The notes beneath the pieces are model-generated. The model searched no databases, was not told the DNA's origin, and saw only the letters and a list, made by a program, of their open reading frames with translations. A stretch of DNA of 25,000 nucleotides from Pigoraptor vietnamica. Its lineage: Eukaryota; Opisthokonta; Filasterea. How positions within the stretch are numbered: position 1 is the stretch's first letter; every line of letters starts with the position of its first letter. The position numbers were made by a program, and so were the translations under genes. The DNA lies in assembly GCA_943704525.1 (NCBI GenBank), contig CALSCQ010003220.1, forward strand, positions 1 through 25,000, written 5' to 3'. Below are positions 14-24,998 of this stretch, piece after piece.

Positions 14-1523
<1,510 letters not shown>

Positions 1524-1748
1524 GTTTCGGCTTACGTCGTTATCCGACGACAACTCCGCCCGCCGCGACTAACAACGCTTATATCCCTCGTTCGACACGC
1601 CGACAGCCGGAATGATGAAGTTGCCAAGGTCAGCTGTACACTCGAGCAACCGCGACGTCGCATCGATTAACGGCATTGTGCAAGCCAAAAAATTGATGAC
1701 CGCACGTGGCAGATCACGTGATGTTTGAATTTAGTAATGCGTTACTTC
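1524..1748. promoter_or_regulatory. DHPS upstream region with a CACGTG palindrome
   Basis: This 225-bp gap separates the DHPS start from the stop of the ABC gene (both minus strand), so it holds the DHPS promoter and the ABC 3' end. It contains the 10-bp palindrome ATCACGTGAT at 1713-1722 and a second CACGTG at about 1703-1708. bHLH-type factors bind such cores in other eukaryotes; function here is inferred. Confidence 0.4.
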
Positions 1749-3181
1749 TCAGGCGGCCTTGAGCCAGGCGCCCTGGGCCTGCCGCAGCGCGAGCAGCCGC
1801 GCATACACCGCCCCGCGTGCGACAAGCTCCGCGTGAGTGCCAGCCTCACAAATTCGCCCGTCGGAACCGAGCACAACGATTCGATCCGCAGCTCTCGCAA
1901 CGCTTTCGTCGATGTGCTCGCCCACAACAAGCAGTCCCGGCCGCTCGGCGGTCGCCGAACCGGGACTGCGGCCAAGCAGCGTCGCGACGGACATCAGCAA
2001 TCCCTCGGCGTCGTCCTGGTCGCACGTCAGAAAGGCGGCGTCCGCCAGCACGAGCCGCGGCTGTCGCAAGAAGGCGCGCGCGACTGCAATGCGCCTCGCA
2101 ACGTGCCCGGCAAGCACGATCGGCTTGACATTCGACGGCGGTTTGCGCGCCCCGCGAAGTGCCGGCGCAGCGTCACCGGCAGCTGCTCGAAAGTGGCTTG
2201 TGACGCGCGTGTCGTAGCCGTGAGGCAGCCGCATGATGGCGTCGTGGATGCCCGCACGCGCCGCAGCGTCCTGCACGGCCTCCAGCGAGCTCGCGCCTTC
2301 CGTGCCGGCCGCAATGTTCTCACGCACCGAGCCAGGAAACACGTCGTCATCCGCAGACAGCCACGCTACAGACACAGGGCCGTCGACCTCGCCGGGGCTC
2401 TTGGATTGCGAGCCGCGTCGCTGCAGTGGCGATGCCGGGACGCGCACGTTGCCGCCCCCGAGCAACTCCACCACACCGCGGTCCGGCGAGTAAAACCCGC
2501 ACGCTGACAAAGCGAAAATGCGAAGGTGAGTGGAAAGATTAGAAGAGTGCGAGATGTGGGTTAGCGAATGTGAGTGGGGGATGAATCTATGAGGCCACTT
2601 ACCCAAATCCAAAATGCACGAGACGCCTGTGTGGTGAAGTGTGCCAGCTGTCAGCACCAACGTCGAGCTCTTGTGAACGACAGCACAAGGGCACTCACCG
2701 AGGTCGGCTGGACCGTAAACATACACTACTTCGCCGCGCGCCACGTCGAGGGAAAATCCGCGCACGCCGTCCTTCCCCCACTTGCGCGGGTGGCGGCAGT
2801 CAACGTCCCGGAAGCGCAGGAGAGAATCGGCGTGTGCGGCGTCACTGCGGTCGCCGTGCGTGCTGCTGTCTGTGCGCATCGATCCCCGCGCAGAATGGAC
2901 GCCCGGCGCCGCGGACGAGTCACGCGATGCTCGAAGGGCGGCCTTGGCGGCGACATCGTCGTCGGCGGTGAACTTCGTTCCGATTAAATCGAACAGGAGC
3001 CTGCGAAAAAGAAAAAAAGGAAGAAATGCTCAATAAAACACACGCACACGCCAAATCAGAGACGCACACCCGTACACCACATACACGCGCCTGACACATC
3101 GCACATGCAGACATGCCTACAGGCATACACTCACTCACAGTCACTCATTCCACGGACGCATGCACAGTCACTTGCTCTACG

Positions 3182-3216
<35 letters not shown>

Positions 3217-4837
3217 CACGCGCAAGACGCACCGCGCGGCACTTGTGCTCGCAGAGTAGGCCTCCATCCGCTCAAAAAGGGCCTGAAGGTTCTCGAACAC
3301 AATGTCTGCGTACATAAAGAAGGCTAGCAGCTTGCCGCGGCTGAGGTCGCGCTCAATGACGTCGCGCGAGGCAAGCCACATGGCCACCGCAAAGCCGCTG
3401 CCGGACGCCATCGATATGAGGAAGTCGTAGGTGGCGGCGGCCTTGGCAGACAGCCTGTCGACGAGGTAGATCTCGCGGCAGAGGCGCGCGAAATTGCGCG
3501 TCTCGAGGTCTTCCGTGGCGAGATTGCGCACCTGCAGCCGAAGCGTGTCACGCCCACTGGCACACAACACACACGCACAGACACCAATCACCAAAACGAA
3601 TTGAACAGAATAAAAGGACCGGGAAAGAACCCTTGTCAAGGATACGCTGGCACGCCCACACACCTGCCGCACACGCAGAATGCTCGACTGCGCATAGTCC
3701 GCAAGTGCTGCCTCACGCCGCATCAGTCGCCCCGTGTTCCACCGCACAATCCTGCGCAGCAGCCGCGCTCAGCTCGAGATGCACAACGCAGCTGCGAACA
3801 ACACGCGCAATCACAACATGCGCACTCCACTCCCCAGTGTATGCGACAACACACGTCATGCGGCACCCACGCGTTGTACGGGAAGGTGATGAAGACGGAG
3901 AAGCCCGCGGTGGCGACGAGAATGGGCCCCAGGTCGGCGTTGACCCAGAAGAAGAACCCCAGTCCCATCGCCACGCCCACGCAGTTCTGGAGCATTTCCG
4001 CGCGGTCGTTGACCATCGTCTCCATGGCATCCACCTGCGGGGCGTCCGTGCCACGCCAGTGTGTGAGTGGGCGCAGAGCCCGTCATTTTTCCAATTGCAA
4101 CAGTATAGACGCAAGTTATCTGCACGTCCACGCACAAGCTCACACACGCCGCAAGAGCACTCCACACACCTGGCCGAGATAGGACACGAGCTCGTTTGCG
4201 CTGAAGCGGTCGATGTACTCGAAGGCGATGTGGCTGAGGATGGAGCGGTGGATGGCCGCGCGGAGGCGCTGAACGAGACGCGCGCTGCCCATTCGCACGA
4301 AAAGGGTTTTGAGGAACATCGCGGCAGACTGTCCGGCGACGAGCAGCAGCATGTCGCGCAGCAGGCGGCGAATTTCGTTCTCCTGTGCGTCGCGCTCCCT
4401 GTACTTGAGTGTGCCGCTCGCAATGTCGACCATGTCCTCAACGTACTGCGGGTAAGGGTGACAGCTGTGTTACGCACACAGTCACGAGCACACACTCACT
4501 CGCACATATCCATTAACTCACTGCCAGTCACCCATACAAGCACACTCACACTTTGTGCGCGCATGCACTCACAAGGGACGACACGCACCTTAATGAGTAT
4601 CATGGCCGCAGACGACTCCAGGAAGAGCATGATGACGGCCGGTACAAAGTACTTGTAGTCCGGGCGCGCATATCGCACCGTGCGCCATGTCAGCGAGTGG
4701 TCCAGCCACCCGCGAATGCCACCGCTGCCTTTGCGCCGTGACGTCGTCTCCCGCGCCTCGTCGTGCCACGCGTGCGCCGCACCCCCGCCCAGCAGTGGCG
4801 AGCGCTCTCCCGCCCCCACGCCCCCCTCCTCGTCCAT
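1749..4837 (-). CDS. ABC half-transporter with degenerate nucleotide-binding domain
   Basis: Exporter-type ABC protein, one six-helix membrane domain followed by one ATPase-like domain, 724 residues. Eight exons: 4837-4589, 4445-4170, 4034-3853, 3751-3664, 3531-3233, 3000-2699, 2626-2603 and 2503-1749. They sum to 725 codons. TM1 is near residues 64-83; exons 2 to 5 carry the rest of the membrane domain. The nucleotide-binding domain runs from about residue 400 and has the right layout, but its key residues are changed. The A-loop reads CRHP. Walker A reads GPADLGVS (461-468), with Val for Lys. The Q-loop Gln is Ala (524). The signature is LAGHV (604-608). Walker B keeps Asp628 but Glu is Ala629. 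The H-loop His670 remains, followed by conserved ADRIVVL. The domain is therefore probably not an ATPase. The donor of exon 3 (GTGTTG) and the limits of exon 7 are the least certain. Substrate and membrane are unknown. Confidence 0.85.
2603..2626 (-). other. 24-nt microexon of the ABC gene
   Basis: The acceptor CACACAG (on the minus strand) ends just before position 2626 and the donor GTAAGT begins at 2602. Used as an exon, it joins the GTGAGT donor at 2698 to the exon starting at 2503 in phase 1 on both sides. It restores the normal family spacing from the P-loop to the CGFYSPDRG block. An alternative phase-compatible acceptor (GCTGACAG) would add seven codons. Confidence 0.6.
3186..3215. 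repeat. (CA)15 microsatellite
   Basis: Perfect CA repeat inside the ABC intron between exons 5 and 6 (TG on the coding strand). Confidence 0.95.
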
Positions 4838-5338
4838 GGCGCCCTACGCGTGCGCGCGTGCGTGCGTGTGTGTGTGTGCTTCAATGGGTGCGTCTTCTGT
4901 GTCGGATTCTGAGGATAGGAGTTTTGACTGCGACTGGGTCAGCGAATTCAAGCAGGGTGTCACAGCGCGGGTGGCTCAAATCCGTCACGTGCGTCGCTGT
5001 CCAGACATCTGTTGTCGTGGACTCCTCCCATTCCTTTGCGTCCCTCTTCAACTGTCGTTCATGCACTTCGCACTGGCCACCCTCCGCACCCCTCCTCTCC
5101 ATCCCACCCACGTCCATTCCTCCTCATCCTCCCCCGCTCGCACTCAACCAAGCTTCGAGCACTCATTGCAGTAGAGAGAGGCACTCCACTGCGCACCTTC
5201 GCCGGTTCGACAATTTCCACCGCGCTCGGTTCGCACGCTCTCAGCCAACTGCCACTGGCGCGGCCACAACACCTCCTTCCTCGTTCTCCCTCCCTGTGTT
5301 CATGAGGGTCGCGGGTGCGTCAAGCCCTTTCCCCTGAC
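4838..5338. promoter_or_regulatory. Divergent promoter region, ABC / ENTR1-like
   Basis: This 501-bp gap lies between two divergent starts. A short GT repeat directly follows the ABC start (about 4865-4879), a CACGTG core lies near 4986-4991, and the stretch at about 5080-5143 is very pyrimidine-rich on the plus strand. A small upstream ORF occupies 5302-5337. No TATA element is seen. Confidence 0.35.
5302..5337 (+). other. Upstream ORF (11 codons) before the ENTR1-like start
   Basis: ATG at 5302 opens 11 codons (MRVAGASSPFP) ending in TGA at 5335-5337, one base before the main ATG at 5339. Its own start context is weak (T at -3); the main start has G at -3 and G at +4. Whether the transcript includes 5302 is not known. 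Confidence 0.4.
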
Positions 5339-7034
5339 ATGGACGGCATCGACGTGCCGCCGAGTGGGCCAAACCCCTTCTCGTTCCGCACGTTCGTGCA
5401 GGCGGGCGGCCCTTCCGCGTCGTCCACGTCGTCAGCGCGCTCGTCGAAAGTGTTCTCCGATGCCGAAGATGCCGGCGGTGCTGCGCCTGCGGACGCAACC
5501 GGCGAGGAGAACCCGTTCTCGTTCAAAAAATTTGTCAAGAGGGACTCTGCGGACGCACTGCAAACAGAGTCGCGCACGCCGCCCGAGCGTAAGCAACCGC
5601 GGACGTCGAGCAAGACGTCGTCGGTCGAAATAGAGACGCCATTTCCTGAGGTGCGTCCGTGTGCTTGATGCGAATGGGCGCCTGCGTGCATTACGCTCGT
5701 CGCAGTGCGCGAAGTATGTGTGGAGGTTTTGCGCTGGCCGGCACATGGGCATCTGTACGTGGGTGTGGGTGTGAGCGGACGTGAGGTCGGGTGGTCCGTT
5801 TGTGTTTAATTGAGGGTGTAGATGCGTGTGCATGCGTGTTGTGTGTGGTGTGGTGAATGTACGCTCTGCGCGCACGGCAGGTACTGCTGCGGATGGCGTC
5901 GCGTCGCTTGCTTTCGTTTCTCTCCGTTACTCGCGCACTCACCCACGGCCCGTGCGCCGCGTGTCCAGGTGGCCGACCCAGAACTCCTCAAAATCGAGAT
6001 TGAGGCACTCCGAAAGAAGAACAAGAAGTCGCAGCGCGCTCTCGCTGACCTCGAGGCACGCGCCGCGTTTGCAGAGGCCGACGCAGAGCGGCTCAAGACG
6101 GAGGCCGCGCAGGCGAACGAGCGCGCGGACGCTGCGGAGCGAAAGGCGGGTCACGGTGTCGCACTTGCGGTGGACGGAGCCGCATTTCAACATCACTACC
6201 CACTTTTCTGAAGATTTGTATTCTCATCGCTGTGTCAAAATCGTCTGCTCCTCGCAGCTCAACGCACCCGCCCATTGTGCTGTAGACACGCCGACTTCCA
6301 AGTTGTGCGCAGCGCACTGACATTGCCTGTGTTCGGTGCCGCAGGTGGCCGCGCTCGAGCGAACAATCAAGACGTTTCGCGCGAAGGAGGCGGAGGACAC
6401 CGCGGCGCTCGAGTCGATGGTGCACGCGATCGAAAAAAACCTCGAACTCACGACGGTGCGTGCAGATGCGATGCTGCTACGGCACGTAGTGCGACCTCCT
6501 TTGTCCCTCTGGAATCCCTTCCCTCACTCAAAAGCGCTTCTGGCGCTGCTTGGTATACTTCGCTGTACGCCTCGTTTTGCCGCTGTGAACGACGGCTGAT
6601 CCCACTCTTGTTGCCCGCACAGGTGCGCGCGCTCAATGCCGAAAGCGCGGCGGACGCATTGCGTGCCGAGCGGGATAAGCTCGCCGCGCGCGTGGTGGCC
6701 GCCGAAGAAGCGGCACGTGACCTCGCTGCCCGGTGCGATGCCTCGTTGAGAGCACTGAGGGAAAAGTCGGCGTATGCATCGGCGCAGGTGGGCAGGCATC
6801 CGCGTTTTTCGCGCGGTCACTTGGATGTCGTGCTATTTCTATTTATCGAGACAGCGCGCGCACGCTTCTTCGAATGAACCCTGTGCACGCACACTGACTG
6901 CGGTGCGCTTGCAGTTGCTCAAGGTGGCCTCCGACGGCGAGGCGGCGGTCAAGTCCCTGCTTCAGAACGTGGAGACGATGCGGTTGGCGGCGGATGTGAT
7001 GGCGGCCATGGACAAAACCGAGCCGCTACACTGA
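5339..7034 (+). CDS. ENTR1: ENTR1/SDCCAG3-like endosomal coiled-coil protein
   Basis: Homologue of endosome-associated trafficking regulator 1, which in animals acts at early/recycling endosomes with retromer and in cytokinesis. Exons: 5339-5650, 5969 to about 6169, 6345-6455, 6623-6787 and 6915-7034, about 300 residues. The N-terminal part is disordered and has two NPFSF boxes (NPFSFRTFV and NPFSFKKFV) like the NPFSF box of the animal protein. Exons 2 to 5 form a long charged coiled coil. The third exon carries ALERTIKTFRAKE...LESMVHAIEKNLEL, closely matching the animal LERKLEAK...LESVVQQVEQNLEL block. The C-terminus (LLQNVETMRLAADVMAAMDK) matches the conserved end. The exon 2 donor is unclear: GTGGAC at 6170, GTCGCA at 6158 or a GC donor at 6146 all keep phase. 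Other junctions are phase 0. Confidence 0.85.
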
Positions 7035-7283: not shown

Positions 7284-8708
7284 TCATAGGAACACCTGAG
7301 TCGTCTCCTTCTCCTTGATGGCGCCCTTGAACGGCTCGTTCAGGTGCACGTGGCAGCCGAGGTCTCGCAGCGCCGCCTTGCCGACATCTCCGCACCCGGG
7401 CAGCTTGCGTGCGGCGCGCAGCACGCTCTCCGCGCCCTCGTCGAGGAAGGGCTGGCGCACTTCCGGGTTCCGCGACACAATGTTGCGCACGGCCATCGAT
7501 GCCACGCGCTGTACCTTGGCGTTGTCGGCGTGCAGGCGCATCGCCGTCACGACGAGGGGCACGCCTCCCTTTGCGTGGAAGGCCGCAACCACCTGCGGCT
7601 GCCGCAGCACGACCGAGCCGAGCGCCCCGAGCGCGTTCTCCACGACCGCCGCGTTCTTCGCGTGCGCCTCAAACGACGCCAGGATGAGGTCCAGCCCGCG
7701 GCCCATGCCCACCGACACCTTCACATCGTCGTTGCCCGCGAGGCACTTGATGAAGTTCAGCGCCTCGGACGCCAGCGGCGCCACCGTCCCGTTCGACTCG
7801 AGCGTCGACACGACGAGGTCGAGGCCCCCACGGGACACAATGTCCTTGCAAAAGTCGTCCTTCACGGCGAGCCGCGCAAGCACAGAGAAGAGCTCGACGG
7901 CCACGGGCGAATCAGGGCGCGCCTTGTTCGCCTGCAGGCACGCAATCACCGTCTCGAGCGTGCCGTTCTCCACCATCGCCGTCACGTGCTCCATGGACCG
8001 GCAGAACAGTGCGCGCTCGTCGTCCGAGAGCGTGAGCGAGCGCAGCAGGCGGCACGCGGCCTCCACCACTTCGTCGTGGGATGCGTGCCCTCGCATGGAC
8101 GCGACAGCAATGTCGATGATGCCGCCGTCGACGGCGCGCTGGCGGTTGATCTCGTTGCCAGTGCACGCGTCCGCGAGGGCAGCGAGGCCGCGACGAACGA
8201 GCACGGGGTCTTCCTTCACGGCCTCGAGCAGCATGAGGTAGATTTGCACGCCGTCCTTGCCGATGAGATCGCGGTTGGCGTCAACCTGCATGCACTCGTG
8301 GAAAATGTCGAGCGCGACGGCGACAAACTCCTCGTGCTGCACGAAGCGGTGGCCCGCAAACAGGCACAGCCTCACGCAGTCGTTCGTGCCCGCCACGACG
8401 CGCCCCTCGTTCTCCTTCACAAGCAGCTCGAGCAGCGCCCGGAATTGCGGGAGCACGTCCTCCGCCTTGCAATCGGCGTTGTCGAGCGCCCCCTTGAGCT
8501 CCGAGAGCGCGGTGGCCACGGCATGCTGCACGGGCGCACCGTCGGCGCCCACCGCTGCCGTCGTCACGACATTGGCAAGGTCCACGCCTTGCGACTCGAA
8601 CTGCTGCCGTGCGTCGGCGACGGCCTCCTCGCGAGACATGCCGAACTCGGACATGTTCTCGTCGACGACGGCGTCAAACGTCTCCTGCGTGATGCGCTTC
8701 TTGGCCAT
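7284..8708 (-). CDS. ARMC6: Armadillo repeat-containing protein 6
   Basis: A single uninterrupted exon of 474 residues, essentially the length of animal ARMC6. The start is the ATG at 8708: MAKKRITQETFDAVVDEN matches the ARMC6 N-terminus, and the frame upstream continues only to non-ATG codons. The block EEAVADARQQFESQGVDLAN is also characteristic. The rest is alpha-helical armadillo repeats, with GGLDLV, GGVPLVVTAM and similar repeat turns. It ends TTQVFL. The family is a predicted protein-protein scaffold whose molecular role is poorly defined, so no pathway is assigned. It is the only long gene here without introns, which could mean an old retrocopy or intron loss; no poly-A tail or target duplication is seen. 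Confidence 0.93.
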   Translation of the reverse strand: MAKKRITQETFDAVVDENMSEFGMSREEAVADARQQFESQGVDLANVVTTAAVGADGAPVQHAVATALSELKGALDNADCKAEDVLPQFRALLELLVKENEGRVVAGTNDCVRLCLFAGHRFVQHEEFVAVALDIFHECMQVDANRDLIGKDGVQIYLMLLEAVKEDPVLVRRGLAALADACTGNEINRQRAVDGGIIDIAVASMRGHASHDEVVEAACRLLRSLTLSDDERALFCRSMEHVTAMVENGTLETVIACLQANKARPDSPVAVELFSVLARLAVKDDFCKDIVSRGGLDLVVSTLESNGTVAPLASEALNFIKCLAGNDDVKVSVGMGRGLDLILASFEAHAKNAAVVENALGALGSVVLRQPQVVAAFHAKGGVPLVVTAMRLHADNAKVQRVASMAVRNIVSRNPEVRQPFLDEGAESVLRAARKLPGCGDVGKAALRDLGCHVHLNEPFKGAIKEKETTQVFL

Positions 8709-9368
8709 TCTTGCCGTGGGATCGCCGCGATGCGTGGTGCTACTGTGCGAGGGCGAGTGTCTTATTGTTCGACGACTTGCGCTTGCTTTCGACAGCACTT
8801 TCTTTCGGTGACTGTGTGTGTTGTGTGGCGCTGCGTTTTATGCACTGCCCACATTCCTCGATGGCCGTGACATCACCACGCAGAGCCCACACTTGTCAAG
8901 CAAATTTGCGCGTTAATATGAACATTTCCATAAAATTGCAATCTTGGTATTTCTCTAAACGGGCTCATCGTGTCTGCGGTATGCGTCACTCGACTGTTCA
9001 TGGCATGGTGGAGGTTTCCAGTAACAAATTTTGTTACTTTAATGTGGTAAGCACCCTTGTTACCCTCTTTGCTTCCGTACGGCATTGTGTGCTTGCGCTG
9101 CGTGCTGCGCGTGCCACTGACGAACCCGTCGCACGGCCTGCGCACACGCCCAGTCCCAGTTATTTGGCTCTCCCACCCATTTTTTGCGTGGGAATGTGGC
9201 GCTTTGCAGTGTGATGACGCAAATGCTGTCGCCACTGTGCGTTGGCTGGGATCACAACACCGCGCCCATGAACTACCGTGCTTTTTCCCTTTTTTCTTTC
9301 ATTAAAACGAACCAAACGAACCAACCAAGCCGCCTCTTTCACCACTGTTTACTCTTGAGACACTGACC
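8709..9368. promoter_or_regulatory. Divergent promoter region, ARMC6 / SBDS-like
   Basis: 660 bp between divergent starts, markedly richer in A and T than the flanking exons around 8900-9060. It contains a perfect 8-bp inverted repeat, GTAACAAA-T-TTTGTTAC, at 9021-9037, and another TTGTTAC about 20 bp downstream. Just before the SBDS-like start there are short direct repeats of ACGAACCAA (about 9306-9324). No gene was found. Confidence 0.4.
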
Positions 9369-9860
9369 ATGGATATCCGCTTGCAGGGCCCTGGTGAGTG
9401 GACGTTGCGACTGCGTGTGGCGCCGGGAGTGACTTATGTGAGGACGCTGTGTACGCAGTGCAGAGCCTCCACCACGACCTCTACAGCAAGGCGAAGGCGC
9501 ACCAGGACCACGGCATTGAAGTTGTGCGCTATCGTCCGAAGGTGCACGCGGGGCGCGGCACGGAATTCTACGTGTACGCCAACAGGGGCATGACGCTCAA
9601 GTGGCGCAGCGACCCGGAGAAGGTGCCCATTCTCGACGTGTTGCAGGCGTTTGAGGTGTACCACGGCAGCCCCCACGGCGAGCACACGCGGCCGTCGTCG
9701 TCGGAGCTCGAGTGAGTGCAGCCTGTTGTGCTGCGCTGACGCTTATGCTCGGAACAGTGATTTTGACTCTGCGTGTCGCGTTTTACGTAGGAACCACTTT
9801 GGTACGTCCGACACCGAGGAGGTCGTGCGGCAGATCCTTCTCAACGGCATGGTGCACTAG
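9369..9860 (+). CDS. Single-domain SBDS-family protein (Rtc3-like)
   Basis: 115 residues in three exons: 9369-9393, 9459-9711 and 9791-9860 (phases 1 and 2; donors both GTGAGT; acceptors CAG and TAG). The protein corresponds to the N-terminal (FYSH) domain of the SBDS family alone, most like yeast Rtc3/YHR087W. Shared features are a beta strand FYVYANRGMTLKW, then ILDVLQAFEVYHG, and the closing helix ENHFGTSDTEEVVRQILLNG, which matches the yeast ENEFG..EEVI.LILRNG. The full SBDS/SDO1 protein, with two more domains, releases eIF6 from 60S subunits. The single-domain form has been linked to RNA metabolism and stress in yeast, but its reaction is unknown. The first exon (eight codons plus one base) is the least certain part. 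Confidence 0.82.
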
Positions 9861-10068: not shown

Positions 10069-11789
10069 TTAGGCCTTGGCGGCGTAGAGGCGCTCCAGCT
10101 CCTCCACGTCCTCCTTGCTGCCGAGAAAGACGGGCACGCGCTCGTGGATGGCCTTGGGCACGTGATCGAGGATGGCGCCCTTGCCCGTGCTCGCGCGCCC
10201 GCCGGCCTTCTCCGTGAGGAACGCCATGGGGAAGCACTCGTAGAGCACGCGCAGCTTGCCGTTCGGCGCCTTCGAGTCCCCAGGGTACATGAACACGCCG
10301 CCGTACAGGAGCGTGCGGTGGACGTCGGCCACCATGCTGCCAATGTAGCGGAGCGAGTAGGGGCTGCCTTTCTTCGGGCGCTTCATGCCCTCCACAAAGT
10401 CCGCGGTGGGCTTGTCCCAGAACTGCGCGTTGCCCTCGTTCACAGAGTAGATTTTGCCGCGCGGGGGAATGCGAATCTGCGCAAAGAGTGCGGTTGCGAT
10501 TGGCGAAGAGTTGGACGGATGCAATGCCCGTCGCGCGCAACAGCACAGCCACTCACGTTCTCGTGTGTAAGGACGAACTCGCCGAGCGACTGCGAAAGCA
10601 ACAAAAAAACATCTCGCGTGAGCCAAGGACAACCACACGACAGGCACAATCACCACGACAACACGACGGCCCTCGGTGCATTCCTCATTCACACACCGGG
10701 TCGAGGGTGTAGCCGTGCACGTCGTGGCCAGTCGAGATGACAAGGACGGTGGAGCTGCCGTACATCGCATACCCCGCAGCCACCATCTCACGCCCGGGGC
10801 GGAGGACGTCCTCGAGGGTGCCCGTGGACGATGGGTTCTGAAGGCAATTTCACTGTCAGAAACCTCACTTGTGCCCAACAAGCATACACACACTCACACG
10901 TACACACGCGTGCACATGCACCCTTACACACGCATACAGTGTCACGTCAACATAACACAGCGACAACTTCCACAGGAACTGCAGCCCAAGCGGAATAACG
11001 CTTCGGGACCCACCACTTTGTAGATGCCGAAAATCGTGCCAATGCTGACACCGGCGTCAATGTTGGACGAGCCGTCGAGGGGGTCGAACACGACGGCATA
11101 CTTGTGCTGGGGCTGTGGTGTGGACGCGTGTTAGCAGTCAACCGCGCACTCAGCGGGCACACACGACGCGCACACGCCGCCCTTCAGGAACGCACCCTGG
11201 CGCCGTCCTTCTCCTTGACGAAGATGGCGTTCTCGTTCTCCTCCGACACCATCACGGACACCTTGCCAGACGACGCCAGCGCATTGATAAACACCTGCGG
11301 CGGCACAGAGGCAAACACAGACGGCAGTTGGCTCAGCAAAAGCGCGCACCATCACCGGCGAGACGACCATCGCACCTCGTTCGAGAGGACGTCGAGCTTC
11401 TTCTGAGTGTCGCCGGTGGTGTTCGTGGACCCGCCTGCCTCGCCCGTCCTGCGCCAAGTGTGCTTAGTGCGAGGGCAACAGATGCAAGCATAGTGCGCAA
11501 CTTAAACGCAGACATACGCACAGATACGCACTCATTTAGAAGTGCACACGCAACATCCAACACATCCACTCATCGTATCCACAAACAGCACTCGCGCAGC
11601 ACGTCACATTGCCACCCACAGGTTCACGAGGCCGGCCTTTCGCACACAGTTGCTGACATATTTGCATCCCAGCTGAATGGCGGCGAGGAGGAGGGTGAAG
11701 TCGCCCGTGGACTCGGGGTACTTGCGCTGCTCCTCAATAATGTGCCGCGTGAGCGTCATGATGTTCGTGTTGTGGTGCTCCGTCTCCAT
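10069..11789 (-). CDS. FBP1: Fructose-1,6-bisphosphatase, class I
   Basis: Hydrolyses fructose 1,6-bisphosphate to fructose 6-phosphate, the committed step of gluconeogenesis. Seven exons: 11789-11620, 11448-11376, 11294-11196, 11112-11014, 10837-10697, 10589-10557 and 10476-10069. They sum to 340 residues, the usual length. Metal ligands are present: SEE (Glu99, Glu100), DPLDGSSN (Asp124, Asp127) and Glu285 in LYECFPM. The substrate region NEG and [10 protein letters not shown] are intact, and the N-terminal AMP-site region reads STGDFTLLL. No plastid-type redox cysteine loop and no targeting peptide are seen, so it is a cytosolic form. The 33-nt exon 6 is supported by phase and by SLGEFVL. 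Exon 4 could end three bases earlier with the same frame. An 11-residue segment ([11 protein letters not shown]) differs from textbook sequences but keeps the length. Confidence 0.95.
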
Positions 11790-12277: not shown

Positions 12278-14271
12278 TCACGCCGTCCAGCCCACAGCGC
12301 GATCGATGATCTTCTGTGCTGAGCGCGCTGCTTCCGCAGGCAGCGTGCCGTAAACAAAGCCACCCCCGCCCAGCCGCGACGACAGGAAGGCGTTCAGCAC
12401 TTCCGACGGCGAATTCTGCGCAAGCAGCGACGCTTGCATGCAGACGGCCAGCCGCTCGACCACTCGGCGCGCCCCAATTTCCTCGAAAGGCTTTGACACG
12501 AGGGCGCGAAGGCCGTCAATTTCGTCGTCCAGCCGCTTGTCCGCGCCGCGCGCGTGCGCCAGCTCCGAGAAGAATGCGTCCACGCTCTGCGGCTCCGTCT
12601 TCATCGCACGGAGAACGTCCAGCGTGATGACGTTGCCCGAACCCTCCCAAATTCCGTTGAGCGGCGCCTCGCGGAAGGCACGCGCAAGCACGCCGTCCTC
12701 GACGTAACCGTTGCCGCCATGGCACTCCATCGCCTCGTGCACGTGACCGACGACGCGCTTGCAGATCCAATACTTGGACACGGCCGTCGCAATGCGGCCA
12801 AACGCCCGCTCGCTCTCGCTCTGCCCAGCGCCAAACGAGCGCGCGAGGCGCATAGTCATGAGCGCCGCTGCCTCCGACTCGATCGCGAGGTCCGCGAGCA
12901 CGTTCGCCATAAGCGGATGCTGGCGGACGGCCTTTCCAAACGCGCGGCGGTGGCTCGTGTGGTGCACGGCGTGGATCACGCCGAGCCGCATGAGGGACGA
13001 CGCGCCGATGCAGCAGTCCAGGCGCGTGTGCATGACCATGTCGATGATGGTGGGGATGCCGCGGCCCTCGGGACCGACGCGCACGGCGTACGCGTTGCGG
13101 TACTCAATTTCGGACGATGCGTTCGACTTGTTGCCGAGCTTCTCCTTCAGCCGCATGATCTGCATCGAGTTGCGCGTGTCGTCCGGTCGCCACCGCGGCA
13201 CGAGGAAGCACGTGGGCGCGTTGGAACCGGGCGTCTTGGCGAGCGTGAGGAAGGCGTCGCACATCGGCGCAGAGCAAAACCACCTGCAGAAGGGCGGCTG
13301 TGAGGCCTTGCACAAAGCGCACGCCCCTCACGCTGCGGCCGTAAAAACAAACGAACAAACCTATCGAATCTGATTCTGACGGTATGACACAGAGGAGAGG
13401 TGAGGGAGAGAGGACTCACTTGTGGCCCAGAAGGAGATATTCGTTCTTCGTGCTGCCCGGCAACGGCGTTGCGGTGGTTGTGTTTGCGCGCACGTCAGAG
13501 CCGCCCTGCGACGCCAATTCGATCAACCCATGCCAGTCCCAAGGCACAGAACAACGCAGCCGCAAACTGCACAGTCAACAAGCGCACCTGCTTCTCCGTC
13601 ATGGCCATGCCGCACTGCGCGCCAGTCTTCTTGTGCGCCGGGAGAACGCGCGGGTCGTATTCGTTGCTCTTGAAGCGCGGCTCCCACTCCTTCGCCACCG
13701 CCGCCTCGTGCCGGATCGCCGGCACAGCAGCATACGTCATCGACAGCGGGCAGCCAATCCCAGATTCCGCCTGGCTAAAGAGGTACAGCTTCATGGCGCG
13801 CGCCACGTGTGCGCCGGGGCGGCTCTCGTTGTTCCACGCGTACGAGTGCACGCCGTGCGAGACGGCCATCGTCATCAGCCCGTGGTACGACGGGTGGAAA
13901 TCGACCTCGTCCACGCGGTTGCCGTAGCGATCGTGCGTCTTCAGCGTCGGCGTGTACTTGTTCGCGAGGTGTCCCATCTCGATAATCTTGTCCGTGCCCA
14001 CAATGCGGCCGAGGTCGCGCACGCTCTCGATGGCCCACTCGGCGCCCTCCGCCCGCAGCACGTGCCGGAGAACGACATCATTGTCAAACGCGTTGTAGTT
14101 CTCCAGCGGAGGCGGCTGGTTTTCGACGCGGTGAGTATGCGGCGATGGCCCATACGGCGATTCAGCGGGGGAATCGGCAGGCACGGCGGCAGCACTGGAA
14201 GCAGCCCTCGCAGTGTGTCGGAGGGCAGAGACGCGCGGTGTGCGGCGCCCCACGCTGCGCAGCGCGTACAT
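12278..14271 (-). CDS. AidB-type acyl-CoA dehydrogenase, putative mitochondrial
   Basis: FAD-dependent acyl-CoA dehydrogenase superfamily member of the AidB / nematode ACDH-11 branch, 591 residues. Exons: 14271-13588, 13505-13420 and 13283-12278; junction phases 0 and 2. Residues 1-30 are rich in Arg, Ser and Ala without acids, as in a mitochondrial targeting peptide. The AidB hallmark N-terminal domain is present (ENYNAFDNDVVLRHVL, VDFHPSYHGLM), followed by AMTEKQ-GGSDVRANTT, GHKWFCSAP, KLGNKSNASSEIEY, RAFGKAVRQHPLM and ECHGGNGYVEDG. The catalytic-region block IWEGSGNVITLDVLRA is intact. In E. coli AidB is part of the alkylation response and binds DNA through a C-terminal extension; the nematode homologue binds long acyl-CoAs. 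The substrate here cannot be told from sequence. Confidence 0.92.
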
Positions 14272-14687
14272 TCTCTTGAGAACAACGGAGTACAGTCGAA
14301 AAATAAAGTTCCGCAGCGTGTGGGTGGTCGATCTGAGCAAGCGGGAACTTATGAAGGTGTCGTGTGCCCGTGTGTGTGTGTGTGTGCTAGAATGTGTGAC
14401 ATGCCGTCATTTAGTCAAATGTCGTCATAGTGACGATTACGTGTTACCCGCACATGCCCACACCTGTCAATCGCTGTCAAACGCACACACCCGCGCAGTC
14501 ACCGACCCACACGACAGAGTGTGCAGCCCTCCTGTTCTCAAGGCGCAGGCGCCGAGAGGACGTTATGCCGGCGACAGCTTGAACGCTTTGAGCAACAGTG
14601 TAGCTGGTTCATCCGCCGGTGACTCTAAGTCCGACGCGCCGGCGCCGAGAAGCCGCCTTGGCTGCGGCTTCACACAATCAACTGAGG
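14272..14687. promoter_or_regulatory. Divergent promoter region, acyl-CoA dehydrogenase / PDI
   Basis: 416 bp between divergent starts. A short GT run lies near 14370-14386. An inverted pair of CRE-like half sites, CGTCA-TAG-TGACG, lies at 14423-14435, with another CCGTCA at 14404-14409. These could bind bZIP factors; this is inference only. Confidence 0.35.
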
Positions 14688-16799
14688 ATGCGGGCGCATG
14701 TGGCCATTGCCCTGTGTTGCACCCTTCTGCTATCGATTACCCAATTCTCGGCGGCGCAGTCCGAGAACGGGCGCAGGAATATCCTGGACATCACGCCCGA
14801 CAACTTTGATGAGGTGAGCCGCCGGCTGACTCACTATCTGAAATCAGTGAAATTGGAGTCGCGGTGGGTTGGCCCCTGAAGCAGCCGTGTAATAAGAGTG
14901 TGTCATGCGGCGACTAGCAGTGCTGAGCTGCTCTTCTCACCTTAGTGCGTGGTGCTGCGCAGCATGTGAACGGCGGTCGCAATGTCGCTGTCCTCTTCTA
15001 CAGGACGACAGGTACGACGTAACTGTGTCTCGCAATTGACTGACGGCCGGGCGCCGAACGCTCACTTTGACACATCAACACGCCGCAGGTTGCCTCGAGT
15101 GTGCTGAGCTTGAGCCGGAGTACGAGCTTGTTGCGGACGCCTTCGAGCGTGCGGGACGCCCCGTCGTCATTGCGCGCGTGAACGCCGGAAGGCACGGTCC
15201 CCTTGCGCGCCGCTTCCAGGCCGAGGCAGCGCTGCCGGAGGTCATTCTCTTTCCGCGGTCGAAACCGGATTACGTCAAGTGGGTGTTGTCGACCGTGTGC
15301 GCACGTATATGCAGTCTGCGAACATCATGGCACCAGCCCATGTCCTCATGGAGCAGTGCGACTGAGCGTTCGGTTGCGTTTCGCTTCGTTATGTCGACTT
15401 GCCGAGTGAGTGGCCGACTGTTAATACGCTGCCTCTTACAGGCTCACGTCCACCGACGCGACCAACGCGGACGCCATAGTCGCATGGCTCAACAAGGCCG
15501 TCGGTGCGTGCGCTTGCCTGGCCATTACACAGATCCGTCGGTGTCTGCCTGCCTGTTAGTCGCCGTGAGGGATTTGCAGTGTCCCGCCGGCAATCACCAG
15601 TAGCTGGTGACTGTTGCCCTCACGATCGCCGCCTCAGCCCTGACCCCTGTCCCAATCCCTCGTCACCTGACAGGGAGCCGCGCCGTCGTTGAGCGCCCTC
15701 CGCCGGCTTACGTGGAGCTTGAGCCGGACAACTTCGACCGCGTCGTGGGCGACAAAGAGCGCGGCACCTTTGTCTTCTTCTACGCCTCGTGTGAGTATGC
15801 CAGATGCCACTGTCGCCCTTATCTCGGGGCGTGCCTGCCAGCGAGCCTGACCCAACTGGAGTGCATTATATTGTCGTGCTGCATTTCATATCCGAAGCAT
15901 TGACCCTTTTACATGGACTGCCTCACTCACGGCAGGGTGTCGCGCGTGCCGCATTTTCTGGACGCGCTTCCGGCGTATCGCGGAGGCGTTCCGTCGCGAG
16001 GACAAGTGCACCCTTGCGGCATTCAACGCGCACGTCCACAAGTCCATTGGGCAGATCTACGCACCCGACGGATACCCCAACATCAAGATATGGCCGCGCG
16101 TGGGCGCTGCGAAGGTGGGCAGTCGTATACCAGTGCGTGGCACTGAGTGTGGGTTGGTCGGTCGGTTCGCTGTCGTAACTATCGTGCGAGTTCGTGCGCC
16201 CCCATGACAGTTATTGAAACCCACTAACGCACGCGCGCGCCATCCCGCGTTCTGGTGCAGGGGACGCCGGTGCAATTCCCCCAGAGCGAGCTGGAGGTGG
16301 AAGACGTGCTTGGCTTCATCAACGAGCACTGCGGCACCGACAGGCGCATCGACGGCTCCCTCGGAGACACCGCCGGACGCATGGCCGACTTCGACGAGCT
16401 TGCGCACGAATTCGCGACGGCGCCAGATGGCAGCGACGCGCGCGCGGCGGCCAAGGAGAAGTTGGTGGCCGCGGCCAAGGCAAGCTCCCAAAGGTACGAA
16501 CCGCTTGCATGTGTGCCGTGCGTAAAGAGGCTGCACGTGCGTATGCACACGACCGCACGTCACTCTTGCTTCCGTGCGTTGTACTGAACCGGCCACTGGC
16601 ATCGGTCGCTCGCAGCGAGGCGAAGGAATACGCGCGCGTTGCCGCCGGGATACTGAGGGAGGGCGTCGAGTACTACGACGGCGAGCGGAGGCGGCTAGAG
16701 AAGCGCGCAGAGCACCCGAACCTCGACGGCTACAAGCGCGACGAAGCAAAGGTCAAGCTCAACATACTGCGCGCCTTCGCGGCGGTGAAGCCAAAGTAG
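14688..16799 (+). CDS. PDI-D type protein disulfide isomerase (two thioredoxin domains plus D domain)
   Basis: ER-lumen thiol-disulfide oxidoreductase of the a-a'-D class, 379 residues. Eight exons: 14688-14813, 14963-15011, 15089-15278, 15442-15503, 15674-15790, 15936-16114, 16261-16493 and 16616-16799; all phases agree. Residues 1-23 are a hydrophobic signal peptide (MRAHVAIALCCTLLLSI). The first thioredoxin domain (about 30-125) has CLEC at 60-63 and a cis-proline near 108. The second (about 140-245) has WCRAC at 182-186 and cis-proline 229 in GYPNIKIW. From about 262 the helical D domain follows, with the family block FINEHCGTDRR and DFDELAHEF, as in ERp29 and plant PDIL2. The C-terminus is KPK with no KDEL-type signal, as in several D-domain PDIs. 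Both active sites lack the usual CGHC His, so redox strength may differ. Confidence 0.9.
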
Positions 16800-18006: not shown

Positions 18007-18616
18007 GAATGGGTTTTCCACGCACCAGTACCATGGTGTACATGTCACACGCACAATGGAACAACGAGCGGCGCCACGCACGTGTCAAGGCCGGGCTCGG
18101 TGGGCTCCCACACGTCAACGGCGGTCCGATAGGAGATGCGTGTGATTTGGTGCACTCCCGGCACGCGCCTCTTCGCAATCTCAGCCACGGAGACGGCCTT
18201 TGCGACGGATCGCCCGACGCCGCAGAGCACGGACGTTCCTTCTGTCGACTGTGCACCGAAGCGCAAGATGTAAGAAAGGACAGCGGGTCCAAGGATTCAC
18301 GCATTCAGCGGAATGCTTCCCCATATACTTTTCGCCCGCACTTTTACCCCACACACTCAAACACACCCGCACACACTTACATACAGACTGCTCCGACATG
18401 CTTCAAACAGTGACCAATAACAACCGCCCACACACAAGCGTGCATGCATGCACACACCCTCAACATCTCGACCGCCTTGCCGACGTACTCGTGCACTTTG
18501 CCACGTGACACAATACGCAGCGCGTTCGGCGGCACAGGCGCTGTGTCTCCCATGTCGTCGTCGGCACTTGCGCGGCCGATGACATCCTGCGCCTTGCGGT
18601 ACTTTTCCACTGGCAT
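17009..18616 (-). CDS. Alba-domain nucleic-acid-binding protein with RGG tail
   Basis: 288 residues in five exons: 18616-18458, 18248-18082, 17941-17867, 17623-17532 and 17382-17009; all phases close. The Alba fold spans about 32-150: NALRIVSRGKVHEYVGKAVEML, then SVLCGVGRSVAKAV and VAEIAKRRVPGVHQIT, WEPTEPGLDT, KHVPAIEITLA and TPGYQPPI. These match plant and protist Alba/Rpp25-type proteins in order and spacing. The C-terminal 120 residues are low-complexity and end in an Arg/Gly stretch (RGRGSHGGGRGGRGRGG) typical of RNA-binding RGG tails. Relatives are RNase P/MRP subunits or cytoplasmic mRNA regulators; the long RGG form favours mRNA binding, by analogy with plant and trypanosome proteins. 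Intron 2 holds the G35 tract and intron 3 a tandem duplication. Confidence 0.88.
17690..17857. repeat. Imperfect tandem duplication in Alba intron 3
   Basis: Two copies of about 82-86 bp (17690-17775 and 17776-17857) share GGGAGAGGGT, AACTGAACGCCACT, CATCGAGTGCG, CACATGTAC and CAGCGCT in order. The second copy ends just before the donor side of Alba exon 3. Confidence 0.85.
17955..18005. repeat. (GT)8 followed by a 35-base poly-G tract
   Basis: A GT repeat at about 17955-17970 runs straight into 35 consecutive G residues (17971-18005). On the Alba coding strand it reads C35 then (AC)8, about 10-60 bases upstream of the CAG acceptor of exon 3. Confidence 0.97.
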
Positions 18617-18670
18617 GGCAAGCAGATGTCGGATCAGCTTCCGTCAAAGCCATCGACTCAAATAAACAGA

Positions 18671-18679
18671 CACACACAC

Positions 18680-18761
<82 letters not shown>
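18671..18761. repeat. (CA)45 microsatellite between Alba and TBC1D5-like genes
   Basis: About 91 bp of almost perfect CA repeat with one phase slip at 18680/18681. It lies between the Alba start and the first visible TBC1D5-like exon. Confidence 0.97.
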
Positions 18762-18763
<2 letters not shown>

Positions 18764-18798
18764 CCGCTCGCAACTTCCTCACTGCGCCCGTTCTGCAG

Positions 18799-19372
18799 AT
18801 TCCCCGAGAGCGACTACTTTCAGTCGCCGCGAATTCGCGCCATCATGATGGACGTCCTGTTCTGTTACACGAAGCTCCACCCGGAGCTGTCGTATCGCCA
18901 GGGCATGCACGAGCTGCTTGCGCCGATCATCCAAGTGCTCGACTGCGAGAAGATCTCTTCGAAGGACGGGTGCGTTGTTGCCGTGTCCGATAATGGCGTT
19001 TGTGTGAGCGTGCGTGCTGTGCTGTGTGCTCGTGTGCGTGCTGGGCTTACGGCTGGAAGACTGCATGAGCTTTTCCATTCCGTCTGTGTCCATTTGTTGT
19101 GCCAGTACGTGCCAACAGACCATCATCTCTGTTTGCGCATCGCACAATGTTGACCGCGCACATTTTCGTTCCCATTTCCGCCTTCAGCGACGAACTCATG
19201 CGGCTGATTCTGAGCGAAGATCACGTGAGGCACGACTCCTTTGCCCTGTTCTCTCGCCTCATGGTGTCGACGCGGGAGTGGTACACGCAGGGCGACGACA
19301 CGCGAACACCGCGAACATCCGTGGTCAGTGTGCACGCGAGGCTCCCACAACATACACGCACACATACACGCA

Positions 19373-19404
<32 letters not shown>

Positions 19405-19457
19405 CACCACATACACACACACACACACGCACACACACACACACACACACACGCACA

Positions 19458-19490
<33 letters not shown>

Positions 19491-21532
19491 GTTGCAGGCT
19501 CATCTGTTGAATACGTCACTGTCACTCATGCTTTTGCTTCGCACAGCCCCAATCGCCGGGCATCGTTTCCCTGGGTTCCGTGTCGAGCGAAGACTCGGTG
19601 AGTCGTCGTGCCACACAGCGCTAGGGCGCGTGCGACAACTTCAACAATCATGCTCCTGCGGTCGCGCGCACTTCGAGTTGTCCTTCTCCCCCGGCTAATC
19701 TTTTTGTTCTCCGCGATGATGCAGTCGTCTCCGCCGGCGATTGTTACGAAGCTGCGCCGCATTCAGCACGTGCTGTTGCGTGAGGTCGACCCCGAGCTCT
19801 ACCAGCACCTCCTCAAGATGGAGATTGAACCGCAAATTTACGGGCTGTGAGTGGTCTCTGAGGACTCGTGCGTGGCCACATGCGTGCGCGTGCCCACTCA
19901 CAAGTGCGGACGCATGCACTTTGAAGACTCACACACAATTTCCTCTTGCTCTGTTACTGATACGGTGTTCTGTCATTGTTACGGTCCACTGATGTACTAT
20001 CGCTGAATGCTGTCGCAGGCGGTGGCTTCGCCTCTTGTTCGGGCGCGAGTTCCACCTCGTCGACGTGCTTGTGTTGTGGGACGCCATTTTCGCCGACGGC
20101 TCGCAATTTGAAATTGTGGACTACATATGCGCCGCGATGCTCTCGTACATTCGCACGCACCGTGAGTGGCTCTCTCTCTGCGTTGCAGCGTCAGTTATAT
20201 GTGCATTCGCCCCTGCGTCAGACTTCACAAACGCCGTCGCGCTGTGTGCGTGCATGTGTGCTGTCACCGATTTTTCTTTTTGGTTAACTCTGTCGTGCGC
20301 AGTTATACAGGGAGACTACGTCACGTGCCTCAAGCGCCTCATGAAGTATCCGCCAGTGGAGGACGTCCGCATCATTATCGAGAAGGCCCAGCAGATACGG
20401 CAAAACCAGAGCCAGATTGCGCGGTCGGCGTCGCCGGTCCCCTCGAAAGGGCGCACGTCCGCAGCATCCGGGGGTTCCTCGACGCCGCCCACGCCGACGC
20501 AGTCGCTCTCGAGCACAAACTTCGCCAACGCACTTGGGGCAACGACGTCCACACGCCCGAGCCCTGGCACGCGGCGACAGTCGGCGGGACCGCAAGCGGC
20601 GCCGCGGATGAAGGTTGGCAGCTGGGTCAGACGGTGATGATCGTGCGTGCGCCACTGGCAGACAGAGAGGGAAAGAGGCGCGTGAAGTGTTGTTTAAGAG
20701 GCGCGTAAAGTGTTGTTCTGCATCAATTTTTGCATCGGACCGCTTCTCACGCCTAACCGTGCTCTCCCCAGGTGCAGGACCTTGCAAAGCCAGTGGCAAA
20801 CTTTGTCAGTTTCATCGGAAGTTCTTTCCGGTCCGTCGGAGACTCGACCGCCGTCCCTGCGACCGCGCCCGCGACACAGTCCTCCACAGCACCGCCGGCG
20901 GAGAAGTCGAATCGCGTGTCTGTGATATCGACCGAGGGGAGAGAGACGCCGCCGAACGCACGGCCGTCCACGCCGACCCGCGAAAGGGTCGCGCGCCAAA
21001 AGTCAACGGCAAGCGTGGCAGGTGGGGACGTGCTTTCGTTTTGTAAAAGTGTCGTTGTGAAATGGCGGTTTCCGCGTTGCTGACCCTCACCCCATCTACG
21101 TGCACAGGAGCCGCGGAGGACGCACAGCGGGTGCGTGATCTCGAGGCGATGAACAAGGCGTGCGCGCGTCGCATACAGAGCCACCTCCGCAAGCTCGAGC
21201 AAGAGCTGGCCAAGATGCCCGACGGCGGCGGCGAGGACGGTCCGGACAAGCGCGCCATGTACCTCGCCATCGCGGGACTCAAGCAGACGCGCGACATTCT
21301 CTACGGCGACCTGCCTTTCCACGCGGCGGGTGACGCAGCGGACGGCGAAGGGACCGAGGACGAGAGCCCGGTCAAGGAAGCGTCCGCCGACGGAGAGGGC
21401 GCGGGCGCGGCTGGCAGGGCCATTTCGCGCTCGCTCTTTGCGGGTGAGAGTGCTCCGGGGACGCAGGAAGCGGAGGCATCGCCGTCGATAGGCGCGGCTG
21501 CCATCGACCCGCTCGGGGCGCTGCTACACTGA
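18799..21532 (+). CDS. TBC1D5: TBC1D5-like Rab GTPase-activating protein (5' exons missing)
   Basis: Animal TBC1D5 is a retromer-linked RAB7 GAP. Eight exons are seen: 18799-18969, 19188-19323, 19547-19597, 19725-19846, 20019-20161, 20303-20613, 20772-21021 and 21108-21532, about 535 residues. The catalytic Gln-finger block SYRQGMHELLAPI is present, then DHVRHDSFALFSRLM, LYQHLLKMEIEPQIYGL-RWLRLLFGREF, VLWDAIFADG, VDYICAAMLSYI and GDYVTCLKRLMKYP. A Ser/Thr/Pro-rich linker leads to a C-terminal helical block, RRIQSHLRKLEQELA..KRAMYLAIAGLKQTRDILYGDL, which matches the TBC1D5-specific tail. The first exon begins in mid-codon in the middle of the TBC domain. The Arg-finger segment and everything before it are not found upstream, where only 182 bp separate it from the divergent Alba start. 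The gene is therefore 5'-incomplete in this sequence. Confidence 0.88.
19347..19490. repeat. Compound CA / CGCA microsatellite
   Basis: About 144 bp of CA repeats mixed with CGCA units inside the TBC1D5-like intron before the 51-nt exon at 19547-19597. Confidence 0.93.
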
Positions 21533-24359: not shown

Positions 24360-24998
24360 CTACACGGCGATCCCCGAGAGCGACGCGGTCGATCCCGCCT
24401 TCTTCATGCCATCCTCCTCAGACTCGCGAATCGTCGCGATCGCCGGGTTCGCCGCCGCCGCCGCCGCCGCGAGCGCCACCGTGGGGTCACCCGGGTCCGA
24501 GCTGGACCTCCGGCGCTGCGCCTCGTCGCCAATCGACCGCCGGCGAGTGGCTTCGTCGCTCATCGAACGGGCGGCCTCCGGTGCCAGGCGCACAAACTTC
24601 TCAAAGGCGTCCTTGCTCAGCGTGAGGAAGAACGACTCCTCAAGCGCCGTCGCCGTCGCCTGCCGCGGCTCCTCTTCGAGCAGCTCGACCTCGCCAAAGT
24701 AATCGCCCGTGCCGAGCGGCTGCGGGAGCATGTCGGCGCCGTCGGGGAGAGTCAGGCGAACCGCGCCCTTGAGAATGACGTAGAGCTTGTCGGGGACGCT
24801 GCCGGCCGTGAAGATGACGTCGCCCTTTTGCCTCTGCTCGTACACGAGAAGCGACGCGAGAAGCTCAAACTTGGACCACGGCTTGTTCTCCTTGATGCCG
24901 CTGAAGAGGCGCACCGTCTTGAGCGTCGTCGCCGTGCGCAGGTTCATGATGGCCTGGCACGTGTCGCGCAGCTCGGGCGCGATCGACAGGAACTTTCC
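24360..24998 (-). CDS. Cyclic nucleotide-binding domain protein (C-terminal part, 5' end outside window)
   Basis: At least 212 residues are open from the right edge to TAG at 24360-24362, without an intron. The visible part opens with helical segment LSIAPELRDTCQAIMN and then a cyclic nucleotide-binding beta barrel: GDVIFTAGSVPDKLYVILKG, then GTGDYFGEVELLEEEPRQAT, whose FGE and PR-x-AT residues are the ones that hold the cyclic-nucleotide ribose and phosphate in PKA-R, so binding is likely intact. After the domain come two Arg-Arg-Arg-Ser sites (RRRSIG and RRRSSS), matching the PKA consensus, an Ala-rich stretch and a short acidic/Ser tail. It could be a PKA-regulatory-type protein or a multidomain sensor; the N-terminal domains that would decide are not in the window. 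Confidence 0.85.
   Translation of the reverse strand, partial: GKFLSIAPELRDTCQAIMNLRTATTLKTVRLFSGIKENKPWSKFELLASLLVYEQRQKGDVIFTAGSVPDKLYVILKGAVRLTLPDGADMLPQPLGTGDYFGEVELLEEEPRQATATALEESFFLTLSKDAFEKFVRLAPEAARSMSDEATRRRSIGDEAQRRRSSSDPGDPTVALAAAAAAANPAIATIRESEEDGMKKAGSTASLSGIAV

Follow-up and report, generated by a model that had tools for sequence, protein, structure and literature searches.

The stretch of DNA analysed here (the window) comprises 25,000 nucleotides of contig CALSCQ010003220.1 from the filasterean Pigoraptor vietnamica (GCA_943704525.1), positions 1 to 25,000 of the forward strand. Near its beginning lies the gene that we call pABC, which reads from 4837 to 1749 on the minus strand and, by gene model and Pfam, encodes a half-transporter with a transmembrane domain (TMD) followed by a nucleotide-binding domain (NBD). 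Downstream of its stop codon, also on the minus strand, are pieces of a deoxyhypusine synthase (218–1568; PF01916, 89.9 bits at 218–817 and 16 bits, against a cut-off of 27, at 1053–1568). The minus strand further holds an armadillo-repeat protein in a single long open frame (7284–8837; ARM_LRRK2, 33.7 bits, cut-off 26.2), a fructose-1,6-bisphosphatase C-terminal domain (10069–10893; 175.1 bits), an AidB-like acyl-CoA dehydrogenase (12278–14406) whose AidB_N domain (212.3 bits) and acyl-CoA dehydrogenase C-terminal domain (100.7 bits) sit in neighbouring frames, and a cyclic nucleotide-binding domain protein (24360–24998; 73.6 bits) that runs past the window end. On the plus strand are an SBDS_N domain match (9398–9715; 27.6 bits, cut-off 24.6), an ERp29 C-terminal domain (16218–16799; 35.5 bits) accompanied by a weak thioredoxin match under its cut-off (15040–15603; 19.5 bits), and pieces of a TBC (Rab-GAP) domain (18509–20637; 28.8 and 22.0 bits, cut-off 25.2), separated and flanked by long CA repeats.

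The structure of pABC is consistent throughout. Its eight exons give a coding sequence of 2157 nt (718 amino acids plus stop); all seven introns are GT-AG, the phases close, and the spliced frame contains neither stop nor frameshift. Exon 1 (4589–4837) carries the start codon, the N-terminus and TM1, exon 2 (4170–4445) TM2 and most of the first coupling-helix region, exon 3 (3871–4034) TM3–TM4, exon 4 (3664–3751) the stretch after TM4 in which the second coupling-helix region begins, and exon 5 (3233–3531) the remainder of that region with TM5–TM6; these placements combine the gene model with TM assignment (exons 1, 3 and 5) and alignment (exons 2, 4 and 5). The end of the TMD, the linker and the start of the NBD, with the A-loop and the first part of Walker A, are encoded by exon 6 (2699–3000, placed by the gene model). 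Exon 7 (2603–2626) is a microexon of 24 nt that continues the Walker A loop (GVSCILDL) and completes the P-loop helix, aligning to the canonical helix without an indel, and exon 8 (1749–2503, by gene model and alignment) supplies the remaining NBD and the stop codon. The original prediction concerned 1749–3000, which is exactly exons 6–8 with their introns, and its phase-consistent model of these exons stands: the exit phases after exons 5, 6 and 7 are 2, 1 and 1, and the NBD is recognised by Pfam in the spliced form (ABC_tran, residues 439–624, 32.7 bits, 7.7 above the cut-off of 25), as against 17.2 bits, below the cut-off, when introns 6 and 7 are retained. Intron 6 (72 nt, 2627–2698) and intron 7 (99 nt, 2504–2602) are both multiples of three and stop-free in the gene frame, so that retention would add 57 amino acids and leave the frame unbroken. 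The TMD is likewise recognised (ABC_membrane, residues 68–339, 60.2 bits), and the presence of both domains in the order TMD then NBD is that of an ABCB-type half-transporter. Among the 25 NCBIfam families listed, out of 59, none reached its own cut-off on pABC.

Judged by homology, pABC is by descent an ABC exporter of the ABCB half-transporter type. Its domain order is shared with ABCB9/TAPL, TAP1/TAP2 and other ABCB half-transporters (type IV ABC exporters). The best PDB match of the TMD, among six, is ABCB9/TAPL (2.5e-8), a best match that may hint at membership of the TAPL subfamily; the NBD matches 247 PDB sequences at E ≤ 0.001, and many of the best 60, which we inspected, are ABCB proteins. 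Compared with 34 full-length relatives, of which 33 are bacterial, pABC has a median identity of 13% in the TMD and 27% in the NBD, where pairs among the relatives have 16% and 40%. In 183 pairs of relatives matched on TMD identity the NBD median is 37% and the minimum 25%, which indicates that constraint on the pABC NBD has been partly but not wholly lost. In the coupling-helix regions the alignment has at most one gapped majority column, and all of their hydrophobic positions (15/15) are kept; consensus residues are kept at 2 of 12 positions, and at none of the six in the first region, which makes the TMD–NBD contact in pABC uncertain. No orthologue was found in viral contigs, nor in GTDB contigs, where 8 of 182 stretches matching the search pattern encode a relative, all bacterial and at 23–32% identity.

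The ATP-contact motifs of pABC have been lost. We aligned its NBD with 45 related NBDs, 43 bacterial and two from its own genome, having dropped open reading frames shorter than 230 amino acids and matches covering fewer than 190 profile positions. The Walker A pattern is present in 42 of the 43 bacterial NBDs and the strict signature in 32, the other 11 having [LVIF]SxGQ. In pABC the A-loop Tyr is replaced by H429, and the Walker A position, split by intron 6, reads GPADLGVSC (2616–2714), with Val461 for Lys. Ala518 stands in place of the Q-loop Gln (2337–2375). A long insertion at the X-loop is followed by LAGHV (residues 598–602) at the signature position (2073–2189), and the Walker B position reads LVLADA (2037–2054), in which Asp622 is kept and Ala623 (codon GCC) replaces Glu. 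These are the five replacements that had been predicted. The accompanying claim that only Asp628 and His670 remain fares less well: the Asp is kept (Asp622 in our numbering), but the His is ambiguous, since at the H-loop position GEH (1908–1931) E663 occupies the column of the canonical His, into which His664 can be brought only by shifting one residue. Also kept are D-loop Asp629, P-loop G455, G460 and S462 and, in the signature, L598 and G600. Three marks of a working ABC ATPase are absent from pABC: a Walker A of the form GxxGxGK[ST], an LSGGQ-type signature and the Walker B Glu; a fourth, the H-loop His, is the ambiguous one. The original prediction allowed that another splice pattern might restore GxxxxGKS and LSGGQ. 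Strict patterns for canonical Walker A, signature and Walker B have no match in the six frames of 1500–6000, where loose searching gave only eight SGG strings and one antisense GKS. A local splice form that rescues these motifs is ruled out over that interval.

A structural model was computed with AlphaFold2 from the intron-retained frame together with ten relatives (pLDDT 66.4, pTM 0.65). In exon 8, 19 of 25 ten-residue blocks have pLDDT of 78–95 and six of 44–66. Residues 101–152, which cover most of the translated introns and the true microexon (125–132), fall below 50. The modelled P-loop helix (154–166; pLDDT about 50–56) consists of the last part of translated intron 7, and the model therefore bears on exon 8 and not on the real P-loop. 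Foldseek places TAP, ABCB6, IrtAB, TmrAB and Atm1 among the best matches of the NBD model; isolated NBDs of TAP1 and ABCB6 rank near the top, with TM-scores of 0.73–0.80 by target length.

Catalytic positions have been lost preferentially, to a degree that depends on the conservation threshold. We chose the columns counted as catalytic according to general motif definitions. Among columns conserved in at least 90% of the 45 NBDs, pABC keeps 4/12 catalytic and 10/11 other residues (Fisher p = 0.009); at 80% the counts are 5/18 and 17/27 (p = 0.033), and at 60% they are 8/24 and 37/66, which is not significant (p = 0.094). Scoring His664 as kept raises p to 0.071 at 80% and 0.154 at 60%, neither of them significant. 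The hydrophobic core is retained, 65 of 68 hydrophobic NBD columns being still hydrophobic in pABC. Codon usage, modelled on 2149 codons from four other stretches including the genome's own P-gp, is positive solely in the annotated frame among the six frames of the NBD, and negative in all 21 sense frames (three each) of the seven introns. The frame had been described as open over more than 250 codons with gene-like composition. It is indeed stop-free and its codon usage is gene-like, but an antisense frame across the same bases is likewise open, so the openness itself is weak evidence for maintenance; splice phase, homology, codon usage and the retained core support it better. On this evidence a pseudogene accounts for the data less well than the predicted maintained pseudo-ATPase, which is supported, not proven.

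The strongest alternative, which we nonetheless consider improbable, is relaxed selection: ATPase ability would have been lost first, and pABC would be a pseudogene in the making whose frame is still unbroken. The NBD shows less codon bias than the TMD (0.15 versus 0.39 bits per codon, with a synonymous part of 0.066 versus 0.182), which also fits relaxed selection, as do the 27% NBD identity against 37% in TMD-matched relatives, the worn coupling-helix consensus, and the want of an orthologue showing conservation in the viral and GTDB contigs searched. Set against this is a large divergence reached without a stop or frameshift, with every splice site intact and the hydrophobic columns retained. 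Neutral decay was simulated without indels from the NBD of the genome's own P-gp, a relative and not the ancestor of pABC. At 35% identity the runs accumulated a mean of 4.6 stops and none of 200 was stop-free; 3/200 were stop-free at 45% and 8/200 at 60%. A recent loss, after divergence under selection, would also be compatible with this outcome.

Somewhat less probable again is that the TMD works alone as an ATP-independent carrier or channel, for instance proton-coupled in the manner of SbmA, with the dead NBD holding the dimer together. SbmA/BacA-like peptide transporters (SLiPT) have an ABC exporter-like TMD that works without ATP, a likeness that pABC may share, and SbmA itself is described in PMC13316013 as proton-driven. 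pABC has six acidic residues in TM columns, the highest count of 35 sequences (next highest five, mean of the other 34 2.2); counting only acidic residues that are rare elsewhere gives five, again the highest (next three), E74, D335 and E339 among them. These counts rest on TM limits taken from hydropathy and partly set by hand, with D114, E188 and D209 lying near helix ends, and all but one of the 34 proteins compared come from bacteria. The loss of most coupling-helix consensus residues also suits this reading, but according to the same source SLiPT proteins lack both the NBD and the coupling helices, and pABC, which has an NBD and coupling regions that align with their hydrophobic positions kept, falls outside that group. 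A related and still more doubtful idea is that pABC is en route from ABC pump to secondary carrier, having gained acidic TM residues while its coupling helices wore down, so that the NBD would serve as a dimerisation scaffold and ATP would not be needed. That the motifs exist in the organism and were missed through an assembly or gene-model artefact is very improbable and largely refuted, for although the draft assembly is in 1395 contigs and introns 6 and 7 could be retained in frame, the canonical motifs are absent from all six frames of 1500–6000, the spliced P-loop helix aligns without an indel, and the change of Lys to Val requires three wrong bases (the Val461 codon, GTC, differs from both Lys codons at every base), which a single base-call error does not explain.

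The rest of the genome (a draft assembly of 32.5 Mb) was searched for copies and partners. No second copy of pABC was detected at E values up to 10, only the window gene and weak matches in other ABC genes. Other ABC genes with canonical motifs are present: Walker A and the signature both occur in this form in contigs C814 and C565, and in C1264 and C238 they occur in separate pieces, the Walker A of C238 being cut by the frame end. On our reading, exon by exon from such pieces, C814, C1264 and C238 are candidate half-transporters; the partner search that had been proposed thus yielded candidates but singled out no partner. Because Pfam searches of the genome contigs listed neither domain of pABC, they would also overlook further diverged ABC genes. 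An exact 17-base rRNA pattern gave no match, and no light-harvesting family turned up, which hints against an algal source.

Among transporters with degenerate sites, TAP and Pdr11p/Aus1p keep one complete ATP site. A complete ABC site combines Walker A and B of one half with the signature of the other, and TAP, as set out in PMC4242082, retains one active site, formed by the TAP2 Walker motifs and the TAP1 C-loop; pABC has lost both halves. Yeast Pdr11p and Aus1p resemble pABC in having a degenerate NBD1 without Walker A and Walker B in a protein that works. There, according to PMC5602531, the losses are complementary, the NBD1 signature and the NBD2 Walker motifs being kept so that one complete site is left, whereas pABC has lost both in a single NBD. 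An asymmetric heterodimer with one consensus site requires either the Walker motifs or the signature in this half, and pABC has neither. In Trichomonas, according to PMC3378599, most of 98 ABC proteins have all three motifs, although one motif, usually the signature, is often very distinct. The Walker and signature motifs of one ABCA group are described there as degenerate, and that group may be a precedent for the loss of both. Among the literature matches listed, by their titles and the openings of their abstracts, none describes a half-transporter that has lost both motifs.

We favour the reading that pABC is an ABCB-family half-transporter whose NBD has been kept as a folded scaffold after the ability to hydrolyse ATP was lost, and from the sequence evidence we put its probability at roughly 0.55. 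It was predicted that losing the Walker and signature residues in one half would compromise both composite sites, and the motifs bear this out: because a single protomer lacks both Walker A and the signature, a pABC homodimer would have no complete ATP site, and pairing with a canonical half would give two half-sites and again no complete one. With no complete site in either dimer, the most likely role would be to accompany a canonical half-transporter as a non-catalytic subunit with a regulatory or structural function, and an ATP-independent channel or secondary carrier is less likely. pABC would then be expressed and under selection, and its NBD, kept for its shape, would still pack against both its TMD and a second NBD, stabilising the dimer. 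If pABC were instead on its way from pump to carrier, it would represent, in a eukaryote, the sort of intermediate from which SbmA-like transporters have been proposed to originate. A half-transporter maintained without Walker A and signature, and so without a complete site in any dimer, would provide a test of whether selection can act on an NBD purely for its shape.
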